DNA of 64,000 nt from assembly GCA_903937385.1 (NCBI GenBank), contig CAIZZF010000010.1:62001-126000 (forward strand), read 5' to 3'. The translations under genes were made by a program, and so were the position numbers. Source of the DNA: an uncultured Holophagaceae bacterium (lineage in GTDB: Bacteria; Acidobacteriota; Holophagae; Holophagales; Holophagaceae). Below the pieces are notes generated by a model that ran no database searches, was not told where the DNA came from, and saw only the letters and a program-made list of their open reading frames with translations. This document shows, in pieces, positions 33,167 through 61,876 of this stretch; the first letter of the stretch is position 1; the number at the start of each line of letters is the position of its first letter.

Positions 33167-35260
33167 TTAAAAGCCGAGGCTCTTGGTGCGTGACTCTGGT
33201 TTCAGAGCAACCTCGGCCTTGAGCTGATCCAGAAGCTGAGCTGCTGACTTGATCGGACGAAGCCGAGACTGCCGCATGACATTGGCGAAGTCTCCAGGCG
33301 TGAGATTCCGAACCCGGCCTAGCTTGAGGTGATCCGATTCCTCTACATCGAAGCCAAGAGAAACAGCCGTGTCCTGGAAGAGAGACCAGGCACCTTCAGG
33401 TTTGAGGAAGCGGAACTCGATTTTTAGATCGAAGCGGCGGAGGCTTGCCGCATCAAGGGTGTCCATCAGATTGGTCGAGGCGATGAAGACCCCATCGAAG
33501 GTCTCCATCTGGGTCAGCATCTCGTTGACCTGGGAGACTTCCCAGCTCCGCTCTGCATTCTCACGCCGACGCAAAAAACCATCGGCCTCGTCCAAAATGA
33601 GGACCGCCTTCTCTTGGCTGGCCTCCTGGAACATAGCTGCAAGATTCTTTTCAGTTCCTCCAACCCATTTCGACTGAAGGTCCGAAGCACGCTTGACCAG
33701 CAACGGACGGTCGAGAGCCTCAGCGAGATGGTGGCCATAAGCTGTCTTGCCGGTCCCAGCCGGGCCATAGAGGCAGAGGCGACCCAGGCCATGCTTCATC
33801 AAGCCTGATTTCAGCTCCAACAAATCGCAGTCGGCATTCAGAAGCTCTGGACGATAGGTAGTCAGATGCTGAACTGAAACCATGGCCTCTCGCGACACAC
33901 CCTGCGCCTGCATCGTGTTACCAACAATCCGCGCCAGGGCTTGGTTCACATTGATCGAGGAATCTTCTGCATGGACGGCCTTCAAAACCTTTGCCGCACG
34001 CTCCACGACTGCTGGTGTCAGGTGCTCATTGTTAGCCAGTGACGCCTTCGTGCTCGAATCCAGGGGCAATTCCACCAGGTAATCGTTCAACACCTTGGAA
34101 CGCACACTACGAGGCGGAACTGCCATCTCAATCACAAAATCAAAGCGCCTTATGAAGGCTTTGTCGATTGTTTCGATCGAATTCGTCACAAAAAAAGTAG
34201 GGACCGGATTTGTCTCTAAAATCAGGTTTATCCAACCTTTCATGCCGCTTAGATTGCCCCGGTCATGGCTGTGATCCTCTTGTCCCTGACGGAACACATC
34301 CTCGACTTCATCAAACAGAACCAGATGTGGACCACCCTTCCTTAGAATCGACTGGGATAGGCGATATGAGCGAAATCTTGTTTCGCCCTTGAGTGGGTCG
34401 CCATTTTCTCCTTCGGTGCTGACGGCGAATGCTTTGACACCTAGCTCACCCGCCAGCATCCGGCAAAGCTCTGTTTTCCCTGTCCCAGGTCTGCCATGGA
34501 TCAGCACATTTACCCCTAGGCGCCTCTCAGCCAGTGCCTGGCGAAGATAGGCCGTAATGATGTCCAGATCCTCCTTCAGGTGCGGGTAGTTCTTGGGCCC
34601 AAGCATGGAGGCCGGGGCCTCCACGAAGCAGCCAGCGAAAAGTTCAAATGAATTCTGGTGCTCAACTTCTAAAGAATCGGCCAGGCCACGAAGTAGTTCC
34701 ACTTTGTTGGAGAAGGTATAACGACTCATCAGGTCTACCTTGAGCAAACCCGTCCTAGAAAGCGCACTTGAGGACCGAAGTGCCTGACTCACGGCTTTTA
34801 GAGGCTGATCGAGCACGATAGAGAACAGTTTCTCGACCATTCCCAGGCTCAGCGGGCCTGCCATCTCCAAAACCTTCGCCAGGAGTGGATGCTGACCCTG
34901 TACCACTGTGAAGTGGAGGATCTCCGATTCAACTTCGGATAGACCAGCCATGTCGCGTAGCCATGAAATGTTTTTCGAAATGCACGAATTGGTGGGAGCT
35001 TCAGCCGGTCGAGCCAGAGCCTTCGCGTGCTTCTCCCGCAGGGCCGTTCGAGCAGCCTGGGCGTCGAATGGTCTGATGAGGCCGAGGTCTGTGAGATCAA
35101 GAAACTCGACAAGTCCATCTTCTGAAAATCCCCGCTCATCAATGAAGTTCCGATGCGCGGAAAGTCCCAACAAAATATTTAAAACCCACAGGCGTATCAC
35201 CTTCTCGTAGGAGGAAGGGAGCAACGAGAATTCCATTTCACTGCGGCGGTAACGAACCAC
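33167..35260 (-). CDS. Tandem AAA+ ATPase (two P-loop modules)
   Basis: The GTG start at 35260 follows AGGGAAGAAGA and gives 697 residues. After an all-helical N-terminal domain (~1-215) come two AAA+ modules. Module 1 has Walker A GRPGTGKT at 256-263, Walker B LVLFDEVE near 313-320 and sensor-1 FFVTNS. Module 2 has GPAGTGKT at 499-506, LILDEAD at 554-560, sensor-1 FIASTN and an arginine-finger-like RRFD. The architecture is that of hexameric remodelling machines such as Cdc48-type double ATPases, but the N-domain differs. It is probably co-transcribed with the unknown gene downstream. A defence or element-maintenance role is an inference from context. Confidence 0.85.
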   Translation of the reverse strand: MVRYRRSEMEFSLLPSSYEKVIRLWVLNILLGLSAHRNFIDERGFSEDGLVEFLDLTDLGLIRPFDAQAARTALREKHAKALARPAEAPTNSCISKNISWLRDMAGLSEVESEILHFTVVQGQHPLLAKVLEMAGPLSLGMVEKLFSIVLDQPLKAVSQALRSSSALSRTGLLKVDLMSRYTFSNKVELLRGLADSLEVEHQNSFELFAGCFVEAPASMLGPKNYPHLKEDLDIITAYLRQALAERRLGVNVLIHGRPGTGKTELCRMLAGELGVKAFAVSTEGENGDPLKGETRFRSYRLSQSILRKGGPHLVLFDEVEDVFRQGQEDHSHDRGNLSGMKGWINLILETNPVPTFFVTNSIETIDKAFIRRFDFVIEMAVPPRSVRSKVLNDYLVELPLDSSTKASLANNEHLTPAVVERAAKVLKAVHAEDSSINVNQALARIVGNTMQAQGVSREAMVSVQHLTTYRPELLNADCDLLELKSGLMKHGLGRLCLYGPAGTGKTAYGHHLAEALDRPLLVKRASDLQSKWVGGTEKNLAAMFQEASQEKAVLILDEADGFLRRRENAERSWEVSQVNEMLTQMETFDGVFIASTNLMDTLDAASLRRFDLKIEFRFLKPEGAWSLFQDTAVSLGFDVEESDHLKLGRVRNLTPGDFANVMRQSRLRPIKSAAQLLDQLKAEVALKPESRTKSLGF

Positions 35261-42656: not shown

Positions 42657-43397
42657 TTATCGAAGAGACAAGTTCCCCTGCGAGGACACTGATCTTGGCA
42701 TTTCATCCCAAGTAAGACCATCTAGAAGCCTCCCGGCCTTCTTCTTGTTGCTTCCACCCCATTGCTTGAAAAAGAACGGGACACCAACACTGAGGCACTG
42801 GTTTCGAATCTCGACTACCCACTTCTCGTCCATCGGCCTTGAATTTGGGCCAGATTCTCCGCCAACGATTGCCCAGTGAATGCCATCGAGTACCACTTCA
42901 CCTAGGGACTCAATCAACGGTTCGAAGGATACGAAGCGCACTCTGGCCGGAGTTCTTCGGAGGTGGTCAAGCCGGTATAGGTACATAGGCGTTTCAACGC
43001 TTACCCCCATCCACACATTTGATGGCCAATCTAGTCTCTGACCAAGTTTCTCCATGCGATCAGACCGCTTGGTTAATATCTGGAAGGTATGCCAGGAGGC
43101 TTGGCGCATCACCTCGAACACTCTGAAGATGAAGTCTTCAGGCACCTTTTGATGGAACAGGTCGCTCATCGAATTGACAAAAATCATTTGTGGCTTCTTC
43201 CAACCCAACGGAAGTTCTAGTGCCTGCTCCTGAAGGGTCAATCTGAACCCATTCTCATAATTGGCTTGGCCCATAGCTTGGAGTCGTTTGGCCATTCTCT
43301 CTGCATAACAATGTTTACACCCAGGGCTCACCTTGGTACAGCCCGTAACGGGATTCCAGGTGGACTCAGTCCACTCAATGGCAGATTTCAAACCCAT
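42657..43397 (-). CDS. DUF5131 / phage Gp37-Gp68 family three-Cys-motif protein
   Basis: The 246-residue protein has the family N-terminus [20 protein letters not shown] followed by CKHCYAE. The cysteines at 20, 27 and 30 form the three-Cys motif, which resembles a radical-SAM cluster. Conserved blocks [34 protein letters not shown] and AIVGGESGP follow. Its start lies 10 bp inside the end of the preceding tcmP gene, so they are co-translated. The family's chemistry is unknown to me; it may be a radical SAM-like enzyme acting with TcmP. Confidence 0.9.
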
Positions 43398-44479
43398 GCC
43401 AGTTTTACCTCATCAGGGTAGCTACCTGCTTTGCGTTTCTTCCCATCAGACTTCATTGCCTCAACTCGAATCTTCGAGGACCCCTCCTCAATTTTCAGTG
43501 CAGCGGTCATGTGTTTCTTCAGGTATGGGGTTTCGTTTTCTACAAAACAGCGCACATCCTTGCCACTGACAGATCCCTTCGTCCGGAATTTCTCCCGAAG
43601 TTGCTCTACCAAGATACCTGTAGTGTCGGCTTCGAATAAGACGGGTTGGTTCGGGTCTGTGGCATCTGAAAAGCTGAACTCACCATCAGGGTTGACCTTC
43701 CACATCGCTTCCTTCATTTTTCGGTGGCCAAGATCATTGTTTGAAGCGAAAAACAGGTAGTACTGAACACGATTCTGCCGATCTCGCATTTCGAAATACC
43801 TAACGTACGTTGCAGCCCCCTGGAGCTTTGACTGATAAAGCTCTCGCAGTTTGACAATGCGATTGCCTGAACCGGTGGCGATCGCGACTGCTTCTTCAGT
43901 GCCGAAGGCGTCCACGATATTTTGCACAACTTTATCATCGGGATGTTCAAGCCAACGGTTGATTGAGTCCACCATGAATGTGACAAATACCTCGGACCGA
44001 TTGCACTTCAACAGCCTCTCGATCAAGGAAAAGGGAATGCCGTAAAACCCAAACGGGTCGATGAAGGCGAAGGTTGGCGCAAGAGAGTCTTTGGCGTGTC
44101 CTATCGAATCGAGCATCTGACCAAACTTTTCGTGGAACTTCCCAGACTCCGTAAAAATCTTGAATTCCGGCGGGGTTTTGAGATTAGCTAACTCCGAACG
44201 CAAATGGTTTAGCCGGTCCTCTCGTTCTTCGATGAACCAGAAAATCACCTCCCCGCTAATCGAATTGCAATGGTTCATTGCCTCACCAATGGCGATCATG
44301 GGAGACCCAGCCTCACCACCTTTGTATCGTCCAGGGCCACAAAAACCATCTATGTAAACGATTCGCCTGTGGTACGTCCCGAGAATTGGAAACCAAGCAG
44401 CTAGGTATCTTCGAAGAATGTCATGTTTGGCAGAGGTGTGAAGTTCTAATTCCCAGAGAGTTTCCTTCGGTGTGGCCAT
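43388..44479 (-). CDS. tcmP: Three-Cys-motif partner protein TcmP
   Basis: The 363-residue product starts with [17 protein letters not shown] and carries the motif [10 protein letters not shown] at 41-50, like the first strand and loop of a nucleotide- or SAM-binding Rossmann fold. [11 protein letters not shown] at about 138-147 resembles a methyltransferase motif IV. TcmP proteins are defined by neighbouring a three-Cys-motif protein, as here with a 10-bp overlap. It begins 62 bp downstream of hsdR in the same direction. The substrate is not known; a modification or defence role is inferred from context. Confidence 0.88.
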
Positions 44480-44541: not shown

Positions 44542-46845
44542 CTACCCAACTGATTCATAAAGGAACCGCTGGAACCCGGTGAAGGCATCCCGGATTTCTT
44601 CGACGCTCCCCAGGTCGGCCACGGCATCGGAGATGGCGTTGTGGTATTTCAGCTTGAGCAAAGGCGACAGTTTCTCTTGGTCGAGTTCGTCCACACCCTG
44701 CTTCACATACTGGGCTAGAACAAACTCTAGGAAGGCCCGCTGTTTATCGGAGTAATTGTCGTGGATCAGGATCTTGGCCTGATCAGCTCGGGCCTCGCGG
44801 GTCTGGGGATGAAGAGCGAAGGCGACATAGGCCAGGACATCAAACAGGTCGCTGTTCTCGGCTTCGATGATTCGTTGCATCTCGGTCATGGTGTCCCGGC
44901 CATAGCCCTTGTCGGATAGACCAGCCAGCAGGGCCTTCCGGGTGTCGGGCTTGCTCCAGATGGCTCTTAGCTCGGCCTCGTCCTTGAAGAACTCCGGCAA
45001 GGCCCCGAACATGTTCTCAAGGAACTGGGCCGCCGACATGGGCCTGCCATCAGCACTCCAGAAGGTGGTGGACATCATGTGCTGGATATTCCGTTCCTTC
45101 CCGTCCGCCAGCTTGATCTTAGTTTTCTGCTGTTGTTCTTTCTCCTTTTCCTTCGGTTCGGGGTCTGGGCCGTTCCGTTGCTGTTTTCGAGTCGATCCAG
45201 CATCACCCTCGGGTTCGATCTCACCGTCCCACTCGGGATCATTGAAGTGGTGGTATGCCTGTACGAAGTCATAGATGGTGAAGTAGTCTTTGCCCTCAAA
45301 GAGCCGGGTTCCCCGCCCGATGATCTGCTTGAACTCGATCATGGAGTTTACGGGCCGCATCAGGACGATGTTCCGGACATTCCGAGCATCTACTCCCGTT
45401 GAGAGTTTCTGGGAGGTGGTGAGGATGGTAGGAATGGTCTTTTCGTTGTCCTGGAAATCCCGCAGGTGCTGATCACCCAGAGCTCCGTCATTTGCAGTGA
45501 CGCGGACACAATAGAGGGGGTTAGTGCTGCTGCTCAGCTGGTTGATGAGGTCTCGCACGGCCAGGGCGTGGGCCTGGGTGGCGCAGAACACCAGGGACTT
45601 CTCATTCTGGTTCATCTGGTCCATGAAGACCTTCACCCGGTAGGCTTCCCGCTCCTTGATCTCGATGATCCTGTTGAAGTCGGGCTCGGTGTACCGCTTG
45701 CCTTCCTCGACCTCCCCTTCGATCAGGATGTCATCCGGGGTGTAGACATATTCATCCAGGGTGGTGGCGATTTGCTTCACCTTGAAGGGTGTCAGGAAGC
45801 CATCGTTGATGCCTTCCTTCAAGGAATAGACGAACACGGGCTCACCGAAGTAGGCGTAGGTGTCCACATTGTCCGTCCGCTTAGGGGTGGCCGTGAGGCC
45901 CAGCTTCACCGCAGGAGCGAAGTAATCGAGGATGCCCCGCCAGGAACTCTCATCCTTGGCCCCTCCCCGATGGCACTCGTCAATGACGATGAAGTCGAAG
46001 AAGTCGGGTGGATACTCTCCGAAGTATTCCGTGCCCTCGGGTCCGCACATGAAGGTCTGGAAGATGGTGAAGAAGATGCTGCCGTTCTTGGGGACCTTGC
46101 CCTTCTTGCGGATCTCATCCGGAGCGATACGAACCAGGGCGTCATCCGGGAAGGCCGAGAAGGCGTTGTATGCTTGGTTCGCCAAGATATTTCGATCTGC
46201 CAGGAAGAGAATCCGGGGCCTGCGGGTGGGTTCCCCGGTCAGGTTCCAGCGGCTCTGGAAGAGCTTCCAAGCAATTTGGAAGGCAATGAAGGTCTTACCA
46301 GTGCCAGTGGCCAGGGTTAGCAGGATGCGTTTCTGGCCTGCCGCCAGAGCCTCCAGCACCCGTTGAACGGCGATGTCTTGGTAGTAGCGACCAGGGTGAG
46401 AGCCACCCTTGTCCTCGAAAGGCACGGCGGCGAACCGGTCCCGCCAAGCGTTCTCCTCAGCATAGGTCCGGTCCCATAGTTCATCTGGGTTTGGGAAGGC
46501 TGAAACATCCCCTTCCTGGCCCAGGGCCATGTCCATGCCGTAGATGGCCTGTCCATTGGTTGCATAGGTGAACCGGACGGCCAGCTTTGCAGCGTAGCTC
46601 TTGGCCTGCCCCACACCCTCCGTATAGGGCTTGTCCCAGGCTTTGGCCTCCACCACGGCCAGCTTGGTGTTGCGGTAGACAAGCACATAGTCCGCGATCT
46701 CGGCCTTGGCCCGTTTGCCGCCCCCTTGGAGCCGCCCCTGGGTAATGCCGTATTCCCGAAGGATGCGGCTGCCCTCGACCACACCCCACCCCGCTGCCTT
46801 CAGGGCAGGGTCGATGTGCTCAGCTCGGGTTTCGGCTTCGTTCAT
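44542..46845 (-). CDS. hsdR: Type I restriction enzyme R subunit
   Basis: The 767-residue motor/endonuclease subunit cuts unmodified DNA after ATP-driven translocation. An N-terminal PD-(D/E)xK nuclease is visible (ADY with D52; VVEAKAW with E66 and K68). The helicase core follows: ATGTGKT at 179-185, IDECHRG at 288-294, GLTATPKR and the C-terminal half including QIIGRGTR. A charged glutamate/lysine linker near 555-585 and a helical C-terminal domain complete it. It begins 9 bp after the stop of the reverse transcriptase gene, so the four genes hsdM-hsdS-RT-hsdR form one operon. All catalytic motifs appear intact. Confidence 0.94.
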   Translation of the reverse strand: MNEAETRAEHIDPALKAAGWGVVEGSRILREYGITQGRLQGGGKRAKAEIADYVLVYRNTKLAVVEAKAWDKPYTEGVGQAKSYAAKLAVRFTYATNGQAIYGMDMALGQEGDVSAFPNPDELWDRTYAEENAWRDRFAAVPFEDKGGSHPGRYYQDIAVQRVLEALAAGQKRILLTLATGTGKTFIAFQIAWKLFQSRWNLTGEPTRRPRILFLADRNILANQAYNAFSAFPDDALVRIAPDEIRKKGKVPKNGSIFFTIFQTFMCGPEGTEYFGEYPPDFFDFIVIDECHRGGAKDESSWRGILDYFAPAVKLGLTATPKRTDNVDTYAYFGEPVFVYSLKEGINDGFLTPFKVKQIATTLDEYVYTPDDILIEGEVEEGKRYTEPDFNRIIEIKEREAYRVKVFMDQMNQNEKSLVFCATQAHALAVRDLINQLSSSTNPLYCVRVTANDGALGDQHLRDFQDNEKTIPTILTTSQKLSTGVDARNVRNIVLMRPVNSMIEFKQIIGRGTRLFEGKDYFTIYDFVQAYHHFNDPEWDGEIEPEGDAGSTRKQQRNGPDPEPKEKEKEQQQKTKIKLADGKERNIQHMMSTTFWSADGRPMSAAQFLENMFGALPEFFKDEAELRAIWSKPDTRKALLAGLSDKGYGRDTMTEMQRIIEAENSDLFDVLAYVAFALHPQTREARADQAKILIHDNYSDKQRAFLEFVLAQYVKQGVDELDQEKLSPLLKLKYHNAISDAVADLGSVEEIRDAFTGFQRFLYESVG

Positions 46846-46854
46846 GGGGGGCCC

Positions 46855-48564
46855 TCAGAAATATTCACTCCACACCATGGAGAAATTTGCTTCGGGCACA
46901 TCTTCCGTTGTCAGTTTTTCAGAGCGAGGCTTTGGAGCCGAGAAAAACTCAAACCCCTTTTCCTTTAACCTCGCAAGGAACCCCTGTCCGTTTCCATCGA
47001 GTTGGCTCACTGACCACACTTGGTAAACAAGTAACCAGTGTTTATCTATTTCTCTGGATTCTGCCGAGAGGAGGTTTTTTGCACACTTGGTCACAGCCGC
47101 CGCTATCCTTTTTCGCCTGTTCCGCTTTGCATATTCAAGCAGCATGACATTGGCAAAACAGTCGCCCAGTCCAACAATCTCGATAAGCTCTTCATCCGTC
47201 AAAGGCAACAGGGTTTCGTGTTTCAAGGCGAGGTAAAGTGCATGTGTGATGGTGTCTGGATAGAGTTTACGCAAACCGAGTTTAATAAGCGAAGCGGAGA
47301 GTTCTGCGATCTTGGAGTCAAGTCCATCAATCCAATAATTGGCGAACACAAACTTATCAAGCAATGGCAGCAAATACGGGTATGCCAGCGTGAGATTCAT
47401 AGCTTCTCTTACATACATGCGCTTTGCACGAGAGTTGAGTTTGCGCGCAAAAACTGGCTCACTTGGATTGTCCTGTGTCCGTCCTTTTGCAATCACCTTG
47501 ATCGCATAGTTCAGCGGAGTAGATTTACCAGCAATCTGAGCACATTCTAGCGCCTGATCAAGGAATGATCGAATTACCGAGAAACGAACTTCACCTCCTT
47601 CAGGGAACGGGAAGCGGTTCAGCACCAACACCCAGTTTTCATCACTTGGACGCGGCAAAGCCTTGATGCATGTCTTCTTTTCATTTAGGGACAACTCAAA
47701 GATCCGAAGACTTAGCCCAAGATCCTGAATGAATTTCTCAGCTTCCTCGTGACTATTAGCATAGAAGCGATAATCGTCAATATGGCGTTTGACCTTCCGA
47801 TGTCCTTTCCTTTGAAGGTCGGCATCAATGCTGGTCAAAATGATCTCGGAGATGATATTTGATGCATTTGGACCGATTAGCAGACCATTCGTTTGCCGAT
47901 CCCTCGTGTTTTGTGTGCACTTATCCAGCAGGTTCCCAGACAGTCTAATTAGGCTACTGGTTTTCTTTGCCTGATCTTTGGTGTGCAATGCCCATGGAAT
48001 AGAATGTGAATATATGCTTGGAAAGCACGAGGCAATATCGGCTTCAACAACATACTGCGCCCCAGCCATCCACTCTAGTTCCTCCTCTTCTAACCGGAAA
48101 CGCTCAGTGCCCCTGTAGTTCATCTCGAAAATACGGCCATTACCAACATGGCGAACATAGATACGGCTTATCGTTGGCCTTGGTAGGTTGCAATGGGTCG
48201 CAATTTCTCGCCAATGTTTGGAGATTGCCAAAGCCTGAACTGCGTAAGACTCGGGATGTGGGATCCCCATATGCCTTGGGATGTTGGTATCCCGGAGGGC
48301 TTCGAATCTCACATAATCGTGAGCACATTTATCAATGGCATTTCGGAGGTTTTTCTCATCGGGCTCATTCAGGATGCCCTTTATTGTTTCAGAAACAAAG
48401 TTGGCTAGCCCCACTGATGTAAAGCAAGGTGGGAGCTTTTCTGCAAACAACCCATGGTCGAGTAGGCCATTGAACACTTCATCTTGGTTCAACTTCTCCT
48501 TGGTCGAGTCCGACCATGCGACGGGAGGAGCTTCAGGTTGCTCGGGCTCTAGGGCTTCGTTCAC
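46855..48564 (-). CDS. Reverse transcriptase of the UG/Abi kind, inside the hsd operon
   Basis: The start is probably the GTG at 48564, 8 bases after AGGG and 13 bp beyond the hsdS stop; a GTG at 48600 inside hsdS is possible but lacks a ribosome-binding site. The 569-residue protein has RT palm motifs: VEADIASCFPSIYSHS (motif A, first aspartate ~176), GLLIGPNASNIISEII (motif B) and HIDDYRFY (motif C, aspartates at about 263-264). LSLNEKKT is motif D. HIDD replaces the common YxDD, as in many antiviral Abi/UG-type RTs. A C-terminal all-helical region of ~230 residues follows, with no endonuclease or maturase. It lies between hsdS and hsdR with almost no spacing, implying co-expression with the restriction enzyme. 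Confidence 0.85.
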   Translation of the reverse strand: MNEALEPEQPEAPPVAWSDSTKEKLNQDEVFNGLLDHGLFAEKLPPCFTSVGLANFVSETIKGILNEPDEKNLRNAIDKCAHDYVRFEALRDTNIPRHMGIPHPESYAVQALAISKHWREIATHCNLPRPTISRIYVRHVGNGRIFEMNYRGTERFRLEEEELEWMAGAQYVVEADIASCFPSIYSHSIPWALHTKDQAKKTSSLIRLSGNLLDKCTQNTRDRQTNGLLIGPNASNIISEIILTSIDADLQRKGHRKVKRHIDDYRFYANSHEEAEKFIQDLGLSLRIFELSLNEKKTCIKALPRPSDENWVLVLNRFPFPEGGEVRFSVIRSFLDQALECAQIAGKSTPLNYAIKVIAKGRTQDNPSEPVFARKLNSRAKRMYVREAMNLTLAYPYLLPLLDKFVFANYWIDGLDSKIAELSASLIKLGLRKLYPDTITHALYLALKHETLLPLTDEELIEIVGLGDCFANVMLLEYAKRNRRKRIAAAVTKCAKNLLSAESREIDKHWLLVYQVWSVSQLDGNGQGFLARLKEKGFEFFSAPKPRSEKLTTEDVPEANFSMVWSEYF

Positions 48565-48577
48565 AGTATCGGCCCTG

Positions 48578-49735
48578 TCACAGGTTGCCGTTGAAGGCAC
48601 GGTGGAGGAGGGATTGCTTCAATTCATCTAGGGCCGTGAGTTTCTGTTGAAGAATGTTCTCAAGTCTCTGGGAAGTTTCCATGATGCCGTCTAGTTGGTC
48701 AATGATGACCCTCTGCTCATTCACAGGCGGGATGACATGGTAGAACTCTCGCTGTTTTGTAATGGGGACCTGGTTTCTCGTGGACTGTCGCATGATCGAG
48801 GTGTACTGCGACTTGAACCCAAACGAACGCATGTAATGGGCTAGGTACATCGGGAGAATGTGGTCTGAGTTGCAACGGTAATAAGTGAGGGATGTTCCAA
48901 GGATCACCTTCGGTTCGACTGTTTGCAGAATTGACACTGGTCCCACTGTGGCGTTGTGGGCAAAAAGAACATCATTGTTCTTGGCTATGCCCTTACGAAG
49001 AAGGGCCGCCCGTTCATGCGACAGATATTTAGCGCGAGACATATCCAAACGATCACCATCCAGGCAGTTCGCAGAAATGTAGGGCACACCCTGAGTGATG
49101 AACTCCTCCTTCCTGGGGTAATCACCTCCATGGTTCCCGTCCAAATGACTCTCAATCCAGCCACGCTCAAGGAGCGTCTCAAGTTGAACTCTCTCCCATC
49201 CCGAACCGCGTGAATTGAAAATTGACTGCAAGTGGCTCTCGAACACCTCTTGTGCGTTTTGAAGGTTCTTCTCGGCGTTAGCTGTGGCGGCAGCAATTCC
49301 ATCGAAGGCTTCATCGAGGATGGTGACGATGCGCTGCTGTTCAGGCAAAATTGGATATGCAACCTTTAGTTCTTTAAGCAATCGGTAGTGTCGGGCGTAC
49401 CCTAGTTGCCTGATGTCAGCACTCAGTAACTGGTAGTAGAAAAATTTCGGAAGCAGGAATGGTTTAGGTTTCAGGATTTTGACTCCATCCGCCCCCAACA
49501 CAAAATCAAAATCAATGTATTTGAGAACCCTGGTGTGGTCACCGAATAGAACAACGGGCCTTTCTACTTTGAATAAATCCGCAGCCTTGTCCCAGTACCC
49601 GTTAAGGAAGCTCTCTTCCTGAGAAACGATTGGGAATTCGCCCTCTTCCAGGAAATCCTTTCGCTGGATCTTGTTGGTATAGGTGACATGTTCGATGGCT
49701 TCTTCAAACGGAACCTGCTTCCACTCCGTTTTCAC
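48578..49735 (-). CDS. hsdS: Type I restriction enzyme specificity subunit
   Basis: The 385-residue S subunit has two target-recognition halves, each followed by a long conserved helix. The first half is about 1-125, with the helix ILPEQQRIVTILDEAFDGIA. The second is about 180-330, with PPVNEQRVIIDQLDGIMETSQRLENIL. The halves recognise the two parts of a split DNA target and bind HsdM and HsdR. Its start overlaps the hsdM stop by 4 bp. The N-terminal half begins VPFEEAIEHV without a strong match to a known recognition sequence, so the target cannot be predicted. Confidence 0.93.
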   Translation of the reverse strand: MKTEWKQVPFEEAIEHVTYTNKIQRKDFLEEGEFPIVSQEESFLNGYWDKAADLFKVERPVVLFGDHTRVLKYIDFDFVLGADGVKILKPKPFLLPKFFYYQLLSADIRQLGYARHYRLLKELKVAYPILPEQQRIVTILDEAFDGIAAATANAEKNLQNAQEVFESHLQSIFNSRGSGWERVQLETLLERGWIESHLDGNHGGDYPRKEEFITQGVPYISANCLDGDRLDMSRAKYLSHERAALLRKGIAKNNDVLFAHNATVGPVSILQTVEPKVILGTSLTYYRCNSDHILPMYLAHYMRSFGFKSQYTSIMRQSTRNQVPITKQREFYHVIPPVNEQRVIIDQLDGIMETSQRLENILQQKLTALDELKQSLLHRAFNGNL

Positions 49736-51186
49736 AGCAACCCCCGGATGATCGCTAGGACTTCGGAGCTCTCCGCATCTAGGGCCGCGATCTCATCCAA
49801 GATGTCCTCAGGGCTCCGAAGGACAACTTCCTCGCCACCGTTGGGGTTTTTCACGGACAAGTCGAAGGTAGCCTTGTCGATGGCCTTCATGTCCACGGAC
49901 CAGGACTTGGGGGAATCTGCCACAGTCTTTTGCAGGGTAAGGAAATCGACTAGATCCTCATCGTTCAGGGGATTGGTCTTCCCCATGTTTCTGCCCGGCT
50001 GAAGCTGGTAGTACCAAACCTTCTTGGTAGGTGAACCCTTCTCGAAGAACAGCACCACGGTCTTCACACCAGCCCCCTGGAAGGTGCCGCTGGGGCAGTC
50101 CAGCACTGTGTGAAGGTTGCACTCCTCCAGTAATTTCTTCCGCAATGACACTGATGCGTTGTCGGTATTGCTGAGAAAGGTGTTTTTGATGACGATGCCA
50201 GCTCGTCCACCGGCCTTCAGGCTCTTGATGAAGTGCTGGAGGAACAGGTAGGCCGTCTCACCCGTCCGGATGGGGAAGTTCTGCTGAACCTCCAGGCGTT
50301 CCTTGCCTCCGAAGGGTGGGTTGGCCAGCACGATGTCGTAGCGGTCCTTCTCCTGAATGTCCGAAAGATTCTCGGCCAGAGTGTTCGTGTGGATGATGTT
50401 GGGGGCCTCAATGCCATGCAGGATCATGTTCATGATCGCTATGACATAGGCGAGGCTCTTCTTCTCCTTAGCGTAGAAGGTCCGCTTCTGGAGGGTGGTC
50501 AGATCCGCCGTAGTCAGGCCCGGCTTCTTCTTCAGGAACTCAAAGGATTCGCAAAGGAACCCAGCCGACCCTACTGCCGGGTCGTAGATGCGCTGGCCGA
50601 TCTTGGGCTGGACCACCTGGATGATGGCCCGAATCAGCGGCCGGGGTGTGTAGTACTCACCACCGTTGCGCCCCGCGTTACCCATGTTCTTGATCTTGGC
50701 TTCATACAAGTGGGAGAGTTCGTGCTTCTCGACCTGGGACTTGAACCGGAGTTCGTCCACCAGGTCGATGACCTCCCGCAGGTTGTAGCCGCTCTGGATG
50801 CGGTTCTTGATCTCCCCGTATATTTCCCCAATCTTGTATTCCGTGGTGTCCGGCCCGCTGGCCTTCTGCTTGAAGCCATGCAGATAGGGGAAGAGCTTCT
50901 GGTTCACGAAATCGCGGAGGTCATCGCCAGTCAGGGCGGCGTTGTGATCCAGTTTCCCGTCCTTACCCTTCGGTGCCGCCCAGGTTCCCCACCGGTAGGG
51001 CTTGTCCAGAATGTAGGCGTAGGGCTTGCCCTCCAGGGCCGCCTCCGTTGCCTTGTCCTGCTCCAGGGCGTCGAGATACTTCAGGAACAGCAACCAAGAG
51101 GACTGCTCTGTGTAGTCCAGTTCACTGGTGCACCCCGCATCCTTGTGCAGGATGTCGTCGATGTTCTTGAAGGTCTGCTCGAACAT
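49732..51186 (-). CDS. hsdM: Type I restriction enzyme methyltransferase subunit
   Basis: The 484-residue N6-adenine methyltransferase begins with the HsdM helical domain (MFEQTFKNIDDILHKDAG). It contains GEYYTPRPLIRAIIQ, the SAM-binding IYDPAVGSAGFLCE and the catalytic NPPFGG near residue 285. It methylates the HsdS-defined target to protect host DNA. It leads the operon hsdM-hsdS-RT-hsdR. A 14-bp palindrome lies 70 bp upstream of its start and could be an operator. Confidence 0.95.
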   Translation of the reverse strand: MFEQTFKNIDDILHKDAGCTSELDYTEQSSWLLFLKYLDALEQDKATEAALEGKPYAYILDKPYRWGTWAAPKGKDGKLDHNAALTGDDLRDFVNQKLFPYLHGFKQKASGPDTTEYKIGEIYGEIKNRIQSGYNLREVIDLVDELRFKSQVEKHELSHLYEAKIKNMGNAGRNGGEYYTPRPLIRAIIQVVQPKIGQRIYDPAVGSAGFLCESFEFLKKKPGLTTADLTTLQKRTFYAKEKKSLAYVIAIMNMILHGIEAPNIIHTNTLAENLSDIQEKDRYDIVLANPPFGGKERLEVQQNFPIRTGETAYLFLQHFIKSLKAGGRAGIVIKNTFLSNTDNASVSLRKKLLEECNLHTVLDCPSGTFQGAGVKTVVLFFEKGSPTKKVWYYQLQPGRNMGKTNPLNDEDLVDFLTLQKTVADSPKSWSVDMKAIDKATFDLSVKNPNGGEEVVLRSPEDILDEIAALDAESSEVLAIIRGLL

Positions 51187-51483: not shown

Positions 51484-52038
51484 ATGAACGCTCAGCTCAC
51501 TGCATGGGTAGCCCAAGTCCATGAGGCTACCGGCTATCTGAAGCGCCTCTATTCGGGGCTGAAAGATCCTGTCCAGAGAAAGCGTGCCGAGGCTTCGGGT
51601 GCTTATGCAGGAGAACGGTTTCGATGCACGGGGCGGAAACCTCAGAAAGCCCAGCCTCCGTGGATCGGCCTCCCTTCGTCTCAGTCAGAGCGGACCGCTT
51701 GGATCAGCGTCATCGAAGGGTTGCTCGGCCTGAACCTTCTGGTCGCTCTGGGTTCATCTCCAGACAAGGGGGGAGCAGGGTCACTTCATAAGAGGTTGAA
51801 CCAGGAACTCACCACAGCCATCAGGGGGTTCACGGCAGCCTTCCCTTCAGAACTTGTCCTCCAGGATCTTAATGCCTTATGTGAAGGCGTGGTGGACCAG
51901 GCAGCAGAGGTGGCCGAATCAGCATGGCTGGAAATCAGAAAGGATGGCGAAGAGTCGGTAGGGCAATTCCTAAAGCAGGAGTGGCTGGGGAACATCCGGG
52001 CTCAGCTTCAGGCCCTGGTTGATTCCCAGGGCAGATAA
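51484..52038 (+). CDS. Hypothetical protein divergent from the hsd operon
   Basis: The 184-residue product (MNAQLTAWVAQVHEATGYLK) is mostly helical. It has a glycine/proline-rich central section (RKPQKAQPPWIGLPSS) and a C-terminal region WLEIRKDGEESVGQFLKQEW. There is no signal peptide or membrane helix. I do not recognise it. It shares the intergenic region with hsdM and could be regulated together with it. Confidence 0.6.
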   Translation: MNAQLTAWVAQVHEATGYLKRLYSGLKDPVQRKRAEASGAYAGERFRCTGRKPQKAQPPWIGLPSSQSERTAWISVIEGLLGLNLLVALGSSPDKGGAGSLHKRLNQELTTAIRGFTAAFPSELVLQDLNALCEGVVDQAAEVAESAWLEIRKDGEESVGQFLKQEWLGNIRAQLQALVDSQGR

Positions 52039-52069
52039 CCAGTCGTTGATTTGCCTACGGACGGTTCGA

Positions 52070-52243
52070 CTAAGTCTTCCTTGGGGCCAATAGGAATCTG
52101 GCTGAGAATTTAAACAGGTGCCTATCCTCATTGACTGGCTTAACCCATTTTATTCCATTTGTTTGGCCTTCCTCGACGGCGTTTTGTTCAGCTCCTTCAA
52201 GGAATAGAGCGGTCTCTCTGTCGATCTGTGCGGTTGTTCTCAT
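52070..52243 (-). CDS. Very small hypothetical protein (57 aa)
   Basis: The ATG at 52243 is preceded by AGAGGTGACCC, a good ribosome-binding site, which rejects the upstream in-frame start at 52276. The 57 residues begin MRTTAQIDRETALFLEGAEQ and end basic (LFKFSARFLLAPRKT). It is convergent with the 184-residue gene, 31 bp apart. No family is recognised. It could be a small regulator or partner. Confidence 0.5.
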   Translation of the reverse strand: MRTTAQIDRETALFLEGAEQNAVEEGQTNGIKWVKPVNEDRHLFKFSARFLLAPRKT

Positions 52244-52385
52244 TGGGTCACCTCTATAAAGAGGTGAGAAGTTCATGATTGAAATGGTTTAATTCAACTT
52301 TTACTCAGTATTAGTACTGAATTTGGGGAATTTTACGGAAGTCATGAACAATAAATCTAATTATATCAACATCGAAATCATATAA

Positions 52386-52970
52386 GTGCGCCAATTGGGC
52401 GTGACTATATCTTTTCGCCCTGGAACCGGCGCCTGGAGCGATGGAGTTCGGAGCCGAAGGAAGGTCAGGTATGTTCCTGGACGCCTTTGATCTTCGAGCT
52501 GGTCCGACCAATCGACGGGCCAATCTGTCGGCCCAGCTCAATTCCCAGGATGAACTGTCCTCAGAACCAGTATCGGCTGAGTACCCCCTCCCAGATGTTC
52601 TGGGTTCGGGGTAGCTCGGGAGGAAACGGTGCAGAGGACATTCAGAAATCCCCTTCAAAGCAGTATCAAGCCATCGAAGGGGCTAACCATGAAACAGCAG
52701 AGACGCCACCGATTCGATACTTCAAGTGGTCTTAGAACGGGTTCTATACAGCTCATGGAGCCCAGGTCTGAGGGGAATGGTCTCTCTCTTAGAGGTCTAG
52801 ATCCGACTCAAGCCTCAAGACCACCTCCCTTCAATAGAGGGTCATGGGCTTCTCGCTCGGCAACCAGGTGAAATCAAGCCTCACGGCAACCATTCACATC
52901 CGCCAACCGCGAGAAGCCCATGACCCTGAGGCGCCAAACCGTTATTTACTACAGTTTTACTTGGATTTAA
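52386..52970 (+). ncRNA. Candidate structured RNA upstream of the group II-type RT (possible intron 5' part)
   Basis: The ~600 bp before the RT gene have no supported coding region and are full of potential stems. GTGCGCC at 52386-52392, followed by an AATT-GGGCG partner, resembles the 5' end of bacterial group II introns. Its distance to the ORF (603 bp) suits domains I-III plus the start of domain IV. Other stems are GGGCC/GGCCC (about 52,518-52,535), a two-part hairpin around CCCAGA-TGT-TCTGGG (about 52,585-52,612) and CCCCTTC/GAAGGGG (about 52,651-52,682). A perfect 19-bp stem lies at 52838-52927. No domain V was found after the ORF. The alternative is a non-intron RNA made for the RT. 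Confidence 0.45.
52838..52927 (+). repeat. Perfect 19-bp inverted repeat just upstream of the RT gene
   Basis: AGGGTCATGGGCTTCTCGC (52838-52856) and its exact complement (52909-52927) enclose a 52-nt loop, ending 61 bp before the RT start. An RNA from this strand would form a long rigid hairpin. Confidence 0.85.
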
Positions 52971-52988
52971 GGAAGGAGGTCGAACCTC

Positions 52989-54503
52989 ATGGACAGCACA
53001 ACTGAATCCCCAATGAATACAGGGAAACAAAGCCTACATGGTCGATCTCAGTGGATCAACCGCACACAGAGGCGTTGCAAGCAGCATTTGAGAACCATCC
53101 TGACCGCGAAAGTCAGGAATAAGGCACTCAGACAGGCAGCCGAGGTCACCTTCCTAAACCAGGCGCATCTTGAGCAGAAATTCCCGCTCACCAGTCTTAA
53201 CCATTACTTTGACCTTCAGAGGTTCTATACAGCTACCCAGCTAGTAAACCCAAATGGCTGTCCCGGAGTTGATAGACAGACCCTATATGACTTCCTCACA
53301 TGCACTGATCCCATGATGCTTGTGAATGAAGTGAAATCCAAATCATACAGGCACAGTCCCTACATGGAAGCCCTGATCGAGAATCTGGACGGTAGCACAA
53401 GGACTCTGATGATCCCTATCTTCAAAGATAGGGTTATCCAGTGCACCTGGCTTCTGATCATCGGACCAATCTTAGACAGAGTGTTTCTCAAATGCTCCTA
53501 CGGATACCGTCCGAATCAGAACTGCCATATGGCAATTCATGATCTTGACTCAGAAATCAGGGAACGCCAAAGAGTTTGGGTAATTGATGCGGACATCCTG
53601 AAATTCTTCACCAATGTCCTGCATCAACCGTTCATGCGTATTTTCCGCCTCTATTTCAAGGATGCAATTCTTCTACACTCGATTGAGTCGATGCTCGGCT
53701 CTATGAGGCAGAAGAAATCTAACGGTAACTCCTCTCCCAAAGGCTTACCTCAGGGTGGAGTTCTGGCTCCCTTGCTGTCGAATCTCTTCCTTCACTATGT
53801 TCTTGATCTCTACTTCCATGAAAGCATTCTCCCTTCCCTCAAAGGCTGGGGAAAGCTGATCAGATATGCGGATGACTTCCTTGTCCTCTGCGGATCTGAA
53901 GAAGATGCGAGACTGGCCCACAGGATGATCCAGGAGCGAATCGAGCAATATGGCCTTTCTCTAAATGAGGACAAAACCACGGTTCGAAATATCTCCAATC
54001 CAGACATTGACCCTCTACTGGAAGGTGAAGGTCCAAGAATGCTTAGCTTTCTTGGATTTGAACTCTCATGGCATAGGTCAGTCGAAGGCAACTATCAACT
54101 GGGTCACAGAACGGAAGAGAAGAGAAGGAAGAAGGCAATTCTGAAATGGAAAGATCGAATGAGAAGGTATGAAGAAGAATGGTCTGAAGGGAACTCACCT
54201 CACCTAATCGGAAGGCTACAGGGCTCTGCTATCTACGGAGTCAATGGGTACAACAATTACTATGGGGTCGTGGGTAATGAACAGGCACTAGAGGAAAATG
54301 AAGAGCAGGTCTACTCAGAAGCTGCACAGTTTCTTGATGATCGCCCTGTCTTCGGAGGCTCTGATAGGAATCCGTTCAGGGAGGACCCTGAACGAATCTG
54401 GCCTAGCGTCAAGATGCGAACACTTGCTGAACTAGCCCAACCAAGGCGAGTTGCAGATTTAAACATTTCGAGAATTCCCAACTGGGGAGGGAGGGGCAAA
54501 TGA
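52989..54503 (+). CDS. Group II intron-type reverse transcriptase/maturase-like protein
   Basis: The start follows GGAAGGAGG. The 504-residue protein carries the RT blocks of group II intron proteins: GCPGVDRQTLYDF (about 90-102), IPIFKDRVIQ, YGYRPNQNCHMAIHDL and WVIDADILKFF (aspartates at 200 and 202). GLPQGGVLAPLLSNLFL (252-268), YADDF (293-297), GLSLNEDKT and FLGFEL follow. A stretch NGYNNYYGVVGNEQAL near 413-428 is like the maturase (X) domain. No HNH endonuclease is present, and the last 60 residues have no known match. Clearly different from the HIDD-type RT in the hsd operon. Either a degenerate intron's protein or a domesticated RT with its own RNA. Confidence 0.85.
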   Translation: MDSTTESPMNTGKQSLHGRSQWINRTQRRCKQHLRTILTAKVRNKALRQAAEVTFLNQAHLEQKFPLTSLNHYFDLQRFYTATQLVNPNGCPGVDRQTLYDFLTCTDPMMLVNEVKSKSYRHSPYMEALIENLDGSTRTLMIPIFKDRVIQCTWLLIIGPILDRVFLKCSYGYRPNQNCHMAIHDLDSEIRERQRVWVIDADILKFFTNVLHQPFMRIFRLYFKDAILLHSIESMLGSMRQKKSNGNSSPKGLPQGGVLAPLLSNLFLHYVLDLYFHESILPSLKGWGKLIRYADDFLVLCGSEEDARLAHRMIQERIEQYGLSLNEDKTTVRNISNPDIDPLLEGEGPRMLSFLGFELSWHRSVEGNYQLGHRTEEKRRKKAILKWKDRMRRYEEEWSEGNSPHLIGRLQGSAIYGVNGYNNYYGVVGNEQALEENEEQVYSEAAQFLDDRPVFGGSDRNPFREDPERIWPSVKMRTLAELAQPRRVADLNISRIPNWGGRGK

Positions 54504-54555
54504 GGCTGATGATTAGATCACCAAGTCGTATCTGAATGTCGAGTGGGGGAATGGC

Positions 54556-54594
54556 CCTTGAATCCAATCAGACTTCAACTGACTGGATTCAAGG
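54556..54594. terminator. Strong hairpin between convergent genes
   Basis: CCTTGAATCCAATCAG and CTGACTGGATTCAAGG pair over 16 bp with one mismatch around a 7-base loop. It lies between the RT gene and the convergent 54603-55193 gene. There is no T-run, so it may act as a bidirectional stop or RNA 3'-end element. Confidence 0.6.
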
Positions 54595-54602
54595 TCGGGT
54601 AG

Positions 54603-55193
54603 CTACTTTCGGCGAACCGCCTTGCCTTTAAGGCCAGGTCGGCCGGTGCGCTTATTAGACTTTACATAACCTAGGCTGTTCCGGCCGAAGTCAGTATCGA
54701 GCTTCTGAATGATCGTTTTGAGCTCTGACCGAAACTCCTCCTTCTGAACCAACTCATAGAAGGAGGAGGTGATTTCCTCCTCAGTGTTGCCCTTGAACCT
54801 GCGGCAAATCGCCCTGGCCAATACTGCGGCTGTCTTATTGATTCGGCTCCCCCGATGTCCGAGGTGGGGTTTCTTCGTAGGCTTCAATTCGACCATCAAT
54901 TTGAGTGCGGCTTGGTACGAGAGCCCCAGTCTTTCAATTGATTCCAACACCTTCCCATACCGCCTCTCCAAGGCCGAATGGAAGATGAACCCGTGTCGTT
55001 GCTCTGGCTTTTCAAGGCAGAGGCGTTCGATGCGGGTAATTACGGAGACAGGCAAAGATTCATTGTTCACAAGATAACTTGCCTTGGCTCCCTTCCCACC
55101 TTTGCCAGCGACATATCTGATTCCCCCGAGTTCTTCAGGCGATTCCTCTACCTTCGGTGTCCGTTCTGGCTGTTTCTTACTAAAAAGCCCCAT
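54603..55193 (-). CDS. Hypothetical protein (196 aa)
   Basis: The start at 55193 follows GGAGGTAATACCC, a strong ribosome-binding site. The protein begins MGLFSKKQPERTPKVEESPE and ends in a basic tail (SNKRTGRPGLKGKAVRRK), which suggests nucleic acid binding. It has no membrane segment. Leucine- and lysine-rich helices occupy the middle. The family is not recognised. Confidence 0.6.
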   Translation of the reverse strand: MGLFSKKQPERTPKVEESPEELGGIRYVAGKGGKGAKASYLVNNESLPVSVITRIERLCLEKPEQRHGFIFHSALERRYGKVLESIERLGLSYQAALKLMVELKPTKKPHLGHRGSRINKTAAVLARAICRRFKGNTEEEITSSFYELVQKEEFRSELKTIIQKLDTDFGRNSLGYVKSNKRTGRPGLKGKAVRRK

Positions 55194-55517
55194 GGGTATT
55201 ACCTCCGGAGGAAATATCGCCGGTATTGATCAAACGACAAGTCACCCAGGCACTAGGAGAGGAGGCTTGGCTTAAGAAAAATCCATTCGTGGCCACCAAG
55301 AACCCCGAAGAAGCCAGTAATAGGAATCAGAGGACGCAAGGAGGTAAGGCAGATGGAACCCACTGACAGAGCACCACCCAAACTCGGCACCTCAAGTCCT
55401 AGTTCGTAAACCTTAACTTCATTGACAGGGGACCTTCCCAAATACCTTCGCAGAATTGCCAACCACGGATTGAGCTTCTTGAAGGAGGAATACCGAGAGC
55501 TAAAAGGAGAAACGATT
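55194..55517. other. Gene-free stretch
   Basis: No convincing coding region. Its right end carries AAGGAG at 55504-55509, the ribosome-binding site of the next gene. No hairpin or operator was noticed. Confidence 0.5.
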
Positions 55518-61829: not shown

Positions 61830-61876
61830 TCGAATTCCTAGCGAATGGAGCTAACCGGCCACGCCTGCACCGAGGT

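Follow-up and report, generated by a model that had tools for sequence, protein, structure and literature searches.

The window, that is, the whole analysed stretch of 64,000 nucleotides, comes from a draft contig of an uncultured Holophagaceae bacterium whose draft genome measures 3.7 Mb and is 97.8% complete. It carries on the forward strand, at positions 52989-54503, a gene for a reverse transcriptase (RT) of 504 aa, recognised as an orphan group II intron-derived enzyme by its open reading frame, its profile matches and its predicted fold. A Shine-Dalgarno sequence, AGGAGG (52974-52979, +), stands 9 nt before the ATG and belongs to a structured leader of 603 nt (52386-52988, +) that has no Rfam match and is not alignable to intron leaders. 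Upstream, a gene of 184 aa (51484-52038, +) and, downstream, a convergent gene of 196 aa (54603-55193, -) have no assigned function. The short space between the RT gene and this convergent gene contains a 16-bp hairpin with one mismatch, a 7-nt loop and no T run (54556-54594, +), which is neither an intron domain V nor a domain VI.

The RT gene sits in a horizontally acquired, defence-rich island. Third-position GC content (GC3) lies between 0.40 and 0.68 in nearly every gene between about 36 kb and the end of the window and is mostly 0.74-0.94 before 30 kb, two restriction-modification genes of the island having values of 0.75-0.80. The island holds a resolvase, a gene pair at 42657-44479 matching the PADLOC candidate system PDC-M30A/B (a DUF5131 protein and its partner), and a type I restriction-modification operon identified by profiles (hsdM, hsdS and hsdR; 44542-51186, -). 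Between hsdS and hsdR lies a second RT of another kind, Drt4 (46855-48600; 523 bits with PADLOC, and 450.4 bits with NCBIfam for a cut-off of 450). Just before the island, a large protein with two AAA matches (33167-35260) resembles IetA of PADLOC and adjoins a DUF7663 protein.

The 184-aa gene has homologues (49-55%) in three genomes of the same genus, none of which was found beside a related RT, and no empty site was obtained from them. At locus L169 (555-4361 and 7964-13307), a homologue of this gene stands near a long RT resembling, by eye, a DRT1-type RT-nitrilase, and also near transposition genes with a Tn7-like look. An element of 39-42 nt in the window (61834-61875) has seven matching copies within one same-genus genome (L170: 346, 1289, 1716, 2132, 2588, 3036 and 3781), mostly spaced by 420-460 nt. 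This array looks like an integron-type cassette array with attC-like elements.

The protein displays the YADD active-site motif (53865-53876), a PQGG motif B and an NYYG segment, so that the description given in the first-pass annotation, a group II-type RT with a maturase-like segment, applies to this reading frame in full. The Pfam domain RVT_1 (99 bits) is its sole domain match; a fusion to Cas1 or Cas6, as in RTs of the CRISPR-associated type, is thus absent. The NCBIfam group II RT/maturase profile TIGR04416 reaches 243.9 bits, under its cut-off of 300 bits, whereas ordinary intron RTs of relatives obtain 346-376 bits. The top sequence matches in the PDB are RT domains of group II introns, and 54 of the 84 columns conserved among intron RTs (64%) are kept, including D202, D295 and D296. 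The same comparison of columns indicates that the catalytic aspartates are intact and that the RRSQ (RRS) motif is lost. An AlphaFold2 model built from 42 sequences (pLDDT 81) contains fingers, a palm and a three-helix thumb at about residues 377-450, and its closest known fold is that of the group II RT GsI-IIC (Z 30.5). Residues after about 455, the region where introns carry RRSQ, are modelled with low confidence. Profile, conserved columns and fold agree on a group II-type RT with a maturase-like segment.

No recognisable intron RNA accompanies this enzyme. At gathering thresholds, the Rfam library detects no group II RNA anywhere in the window, and in 52000-55300 it detects none at E values up to 10, RF02005 included. 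As positive controls, the same library finds the D1-D4 core (RF02005, 62-160 bits) and/or domain V (RF00029) around related intron RTs. A domain V pattern, present in 60 of the 156 fetched loci, is likewise absent from the window, and the covariance and pattern searches thereby agree with the first-pass annotation, which had not found a domain V hairpin downstream of the RT and called for the Rfam models to be run. That annotation had also envisaged a 3'-truncated intron. In that form the explanation is not supported: the locus is not merely truncated at its 3' end because the 5' ribozyme core is also unrecognisable, RF02005 being unmatched where relatives score well, and the divergence of the RT is itself large. 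Genome-wide, RF00029 gives zero matches at E up to 10, the RF02005 matches do not exceed 13 bits and are sub-threshold noise, and no further RT of this kind is encoded. The RT therefore has no recognisable intron to splice anywhere in the genome, and no other group II intron is there for it to serve.

What an intact intron of this family looks like could be read from another genome, G113, which contains ten identical copies of a related RT. The four of them that were compared (L021, L132, L146 and L151) are one and the same group II intron of 2.0 kb, and they give its exact ends: its first bases are GTGCGCC, the ATG lies near +594, and its domain V sets in 4 nt after the RT stop codon. In contrast, no domain V-like sequence lies just 3' of the stop codon at 54503 in the window. 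With neither D1-D4 nor domain V/VI, a single copy and no exon junction found for the locus, a functional group II intron was rejected.

The RT also stands apart by its divergence. Neither 84,980 genomes nor IMG/VR yielded a close homologue in exact-peptide scans, plasmid and phage records match at about 30% only, and no homologue above about 35% identity was found in the collections searched. Among 93 same-class and 396 same-phylum genomes, nothing is nearer than introns save two group II-like RTs from two same-genus genomes (L025:9321-10766 and L024:9105-10475), with 29-30% identity. In trees of up to 97 related RTs, the window RT sits at the tip of a branch of 2.0-2.1 changes per site, where the medians are 0.26 and 0.46. 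The rows nearest to it vary between trees; in the careful tree they are same-family intron RTs, the placement of so long a branch being uncertain. The two same-genus RTs are also devoid of Rfam intron RNA, have lost or degraded the RRSQ motif, show long branches and lie in islands with recombinases, whereas their C-termini differ from that of the window RT and they have no structured leader. One of them follows closely behind two ORFs; the other, next to a type I restriction-modification operon, stands behind recombinase-type genes. A common clade of the three RTs is not rejected (p-AU 0.36), and the L024 island has in common with the window a resolvase (58%) and a gene of 122 aa (65%).

The leader folds better than its shuffled versions (MFE -234.8 for 603 nt, z -6.8). 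The several good stems noticed in it by the first-pass annotation are therefore real, but almost all of the signal comes from one hairpin with a perfect 19-bp stem and a 52-nt loop (52838-52927, +; inverted repeat 52838-52856/52909-52927). This hairpin alone has a z of -7.2, whereas the leader without it (445 nt) falls to -2.1, with 3 of 100 shuffles equally good. The fetched sequences contain about 7 such perfect repeats per Mb, or roughly 0.7% for 1 kb, and such a hairpin is unusual for a stretch of that length, yet not extraordinary. Searching the leader DNA in 93 genomes returned only chance matches to coding genes, for example a kinase, and a sigma-70 promoter scan found no match. An exact 14-nt repeat, GGTTCTATACAGCT, is shared by the leader (52740-52753) and the RT coding sequence (53221-53234).

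The leader begins with GTGCGCCAATTGGGCG (52386-52401, +), which resembles the 5' ends of the same-family introns (GTGCGCCAGGC..GCCTGGGCG) and is a possible remnant of one. GTGCGCC at 52386 stands 603 nt ahead of the ATG, and the same-family introns begin with GTGCGCCA about 591-593 nt ahead of theirs. The pattern GTGCGCCAN{2,12}TGGGCG has a single occurrence in the window for 0 expected, and a slightly relaxed version of it has 5 across the 3.7 Mb of the genome. The intron-type 5' signature announced earlier is thus present, but it is weak evidence because of these looser occurrences and because the rest of the leader, in global and local alignments with five real intron leaders, aligns no better than shuffled sequence. 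Its start and its matching distance to the ATG may nevertheless be a trace of intron ancestry. An eroded intron leader would still be there on account of GTGCGCCA and of 603 versus 591-593 nt, a hint that was counted against reading the RT as an orphan.

The best explanation, which we hold with good though not full confidence, is that of an orphan, domesticated group II intron-derived RT carried as cargo of the defence-rich island. Its lineage and fold, its intact catalytic residues, the lack of recognisable intron RNA and the loss of the RRSQ region are observed, whereas domestication is probable, and we infer a host function. The results support the earlier proposal of an RT employed outside an intron. 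Its own Shine-Dalgarno sequence would direct its translation as a free-standing protein, and the RT would make DNA copies of RNA or DNA templates in the service of the host or the island. Its possible uses include anti-phage defence, for which the basis is the neighbourhood, or end repair as for the domesticated RT G2L4. The leader might be a template or cofactor of the RT, or only a 5' untranslated region controlling translation. An RT clear of its intron, set among defence genes in a genome devoid of group II introns and still recognisably close to its intron relatives, would offer a manageable system in which to ask how such enzymes get put to new use.

A possible but less favoured alternative is that the RT works with its own noncoding RNA: the leader would give a transcript that the RT binds and uses as its template, as in class 2 DRTs or retrons, for defence against phages. 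Class 2 DRTs (DRT2, DRT9 and DRT10/UG17) indeed resemble the locus by the structured DNA upstream of the RT and by their location in defence-rich islands, the ncRNAs of DRT9 being found directly upstream of the RT (PMC12483538). The leader, with its fold and its perfect hairpin, occupies the same place in the same orientation. Against this, the structure outside the hairpin is weak, the leader is not recognisable as intron RNA, its 603 nt exceed the 137 nt of the DRT10 ncRNA (PMC12632851), and the same-genus intron-less RTs have no such leader. The profiles argue in the same direction: the Drt2 profile gives 65.2 bits for a cut-off of 390, as for an ordinary intron RT (L022, 63.2 bits), and Drt9 (75.7 bits) and UG17 (88.3 bits) remain under the generic RT model at 180.6 bits. 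Membership in the DRT2, DRT9 or DRT10 families by profile was rejected, the scores lying far under the cut-offs and that of Drt2 being no higher than for intron RTs. No SLATT gene was recognised adjoining the RT. We put a functional RNA partner for the RT at about one in three. Rather improbable, though worth stating, is the bolder version in which a mobile group II intron would have given rise directly to a new ncRNA-dependent antiviral RT, by losing its catalytic RNA domains and having its former leader rebuilt as a template or cofactor RNA. If true, it would show how intron RTs become defence RTs.

It is unlikely that the locus is a dead relic, in which the RNA of an old group II intron has decayed and the ORF has stayed open by chance. 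The 5' GTGCGCCA signature and the intron-like length of the leader would fit such a relic, as would the loss of the RRS motif with 64% of the conserved columns kept. A decaying relic is unexpected, however, because a frame of 504 codons is stop-free at about 2 substitutions per site, and neither the strong Shine-Dalgarno sequence nor the intact catalytic aspartates would be expected under neutral decay. With its frame and catalytic site intact, the locus is more likely an orphan domesticated RT than such a relic. Very improbable, finally, is an active split or non-canonical intron whose domain V would act in trans or have diverged beyond the reach of Rfam: split group II introns do exist and the maturase-like segment is kept, but the RT is single-copy and has lost the RRS motif, and the genome-wide search, empty for RF00029 and reduced to noise for RF02005 in a nearly complete genome, practically excludes it.

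Taken as an orphan domesticated RT, the enzyme may be compared with known systems. The same-family mobile introns (L002, L003, L021, L022 and L010, of RF02005 type) share with it the RT fold and motifs, YADD, the NYYG-type segment, a leader of about 600 nt and GTGCGCCA at the matching position, the best of them having 33-35% protein identity. Unlike them, the window has neither D1-D4 nor domain V/VI, its RT has no RRSQ and it is present in one copy where G113 has ten. G2L4, for its part, is likewise a free-standing group II-type RT with no intron RNA and no recognisable DNA-binding region, and its structure matches that of the window RT with a Z of 26.8. Sequence similarity between both enzymes reaches only E 1.3e-6, weaker than to intron RTs, and the window RT carries YADD whereas the active-site motif of G2L4 is YIDD (PMC4244168). 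By its motif, the window RT thus differs from G2L4 itself, whereas in the broad sense of the G2L type, defined by the group II RT lineage, the absence of intron RNA and a free-standing ORF, it is an RT of this type.
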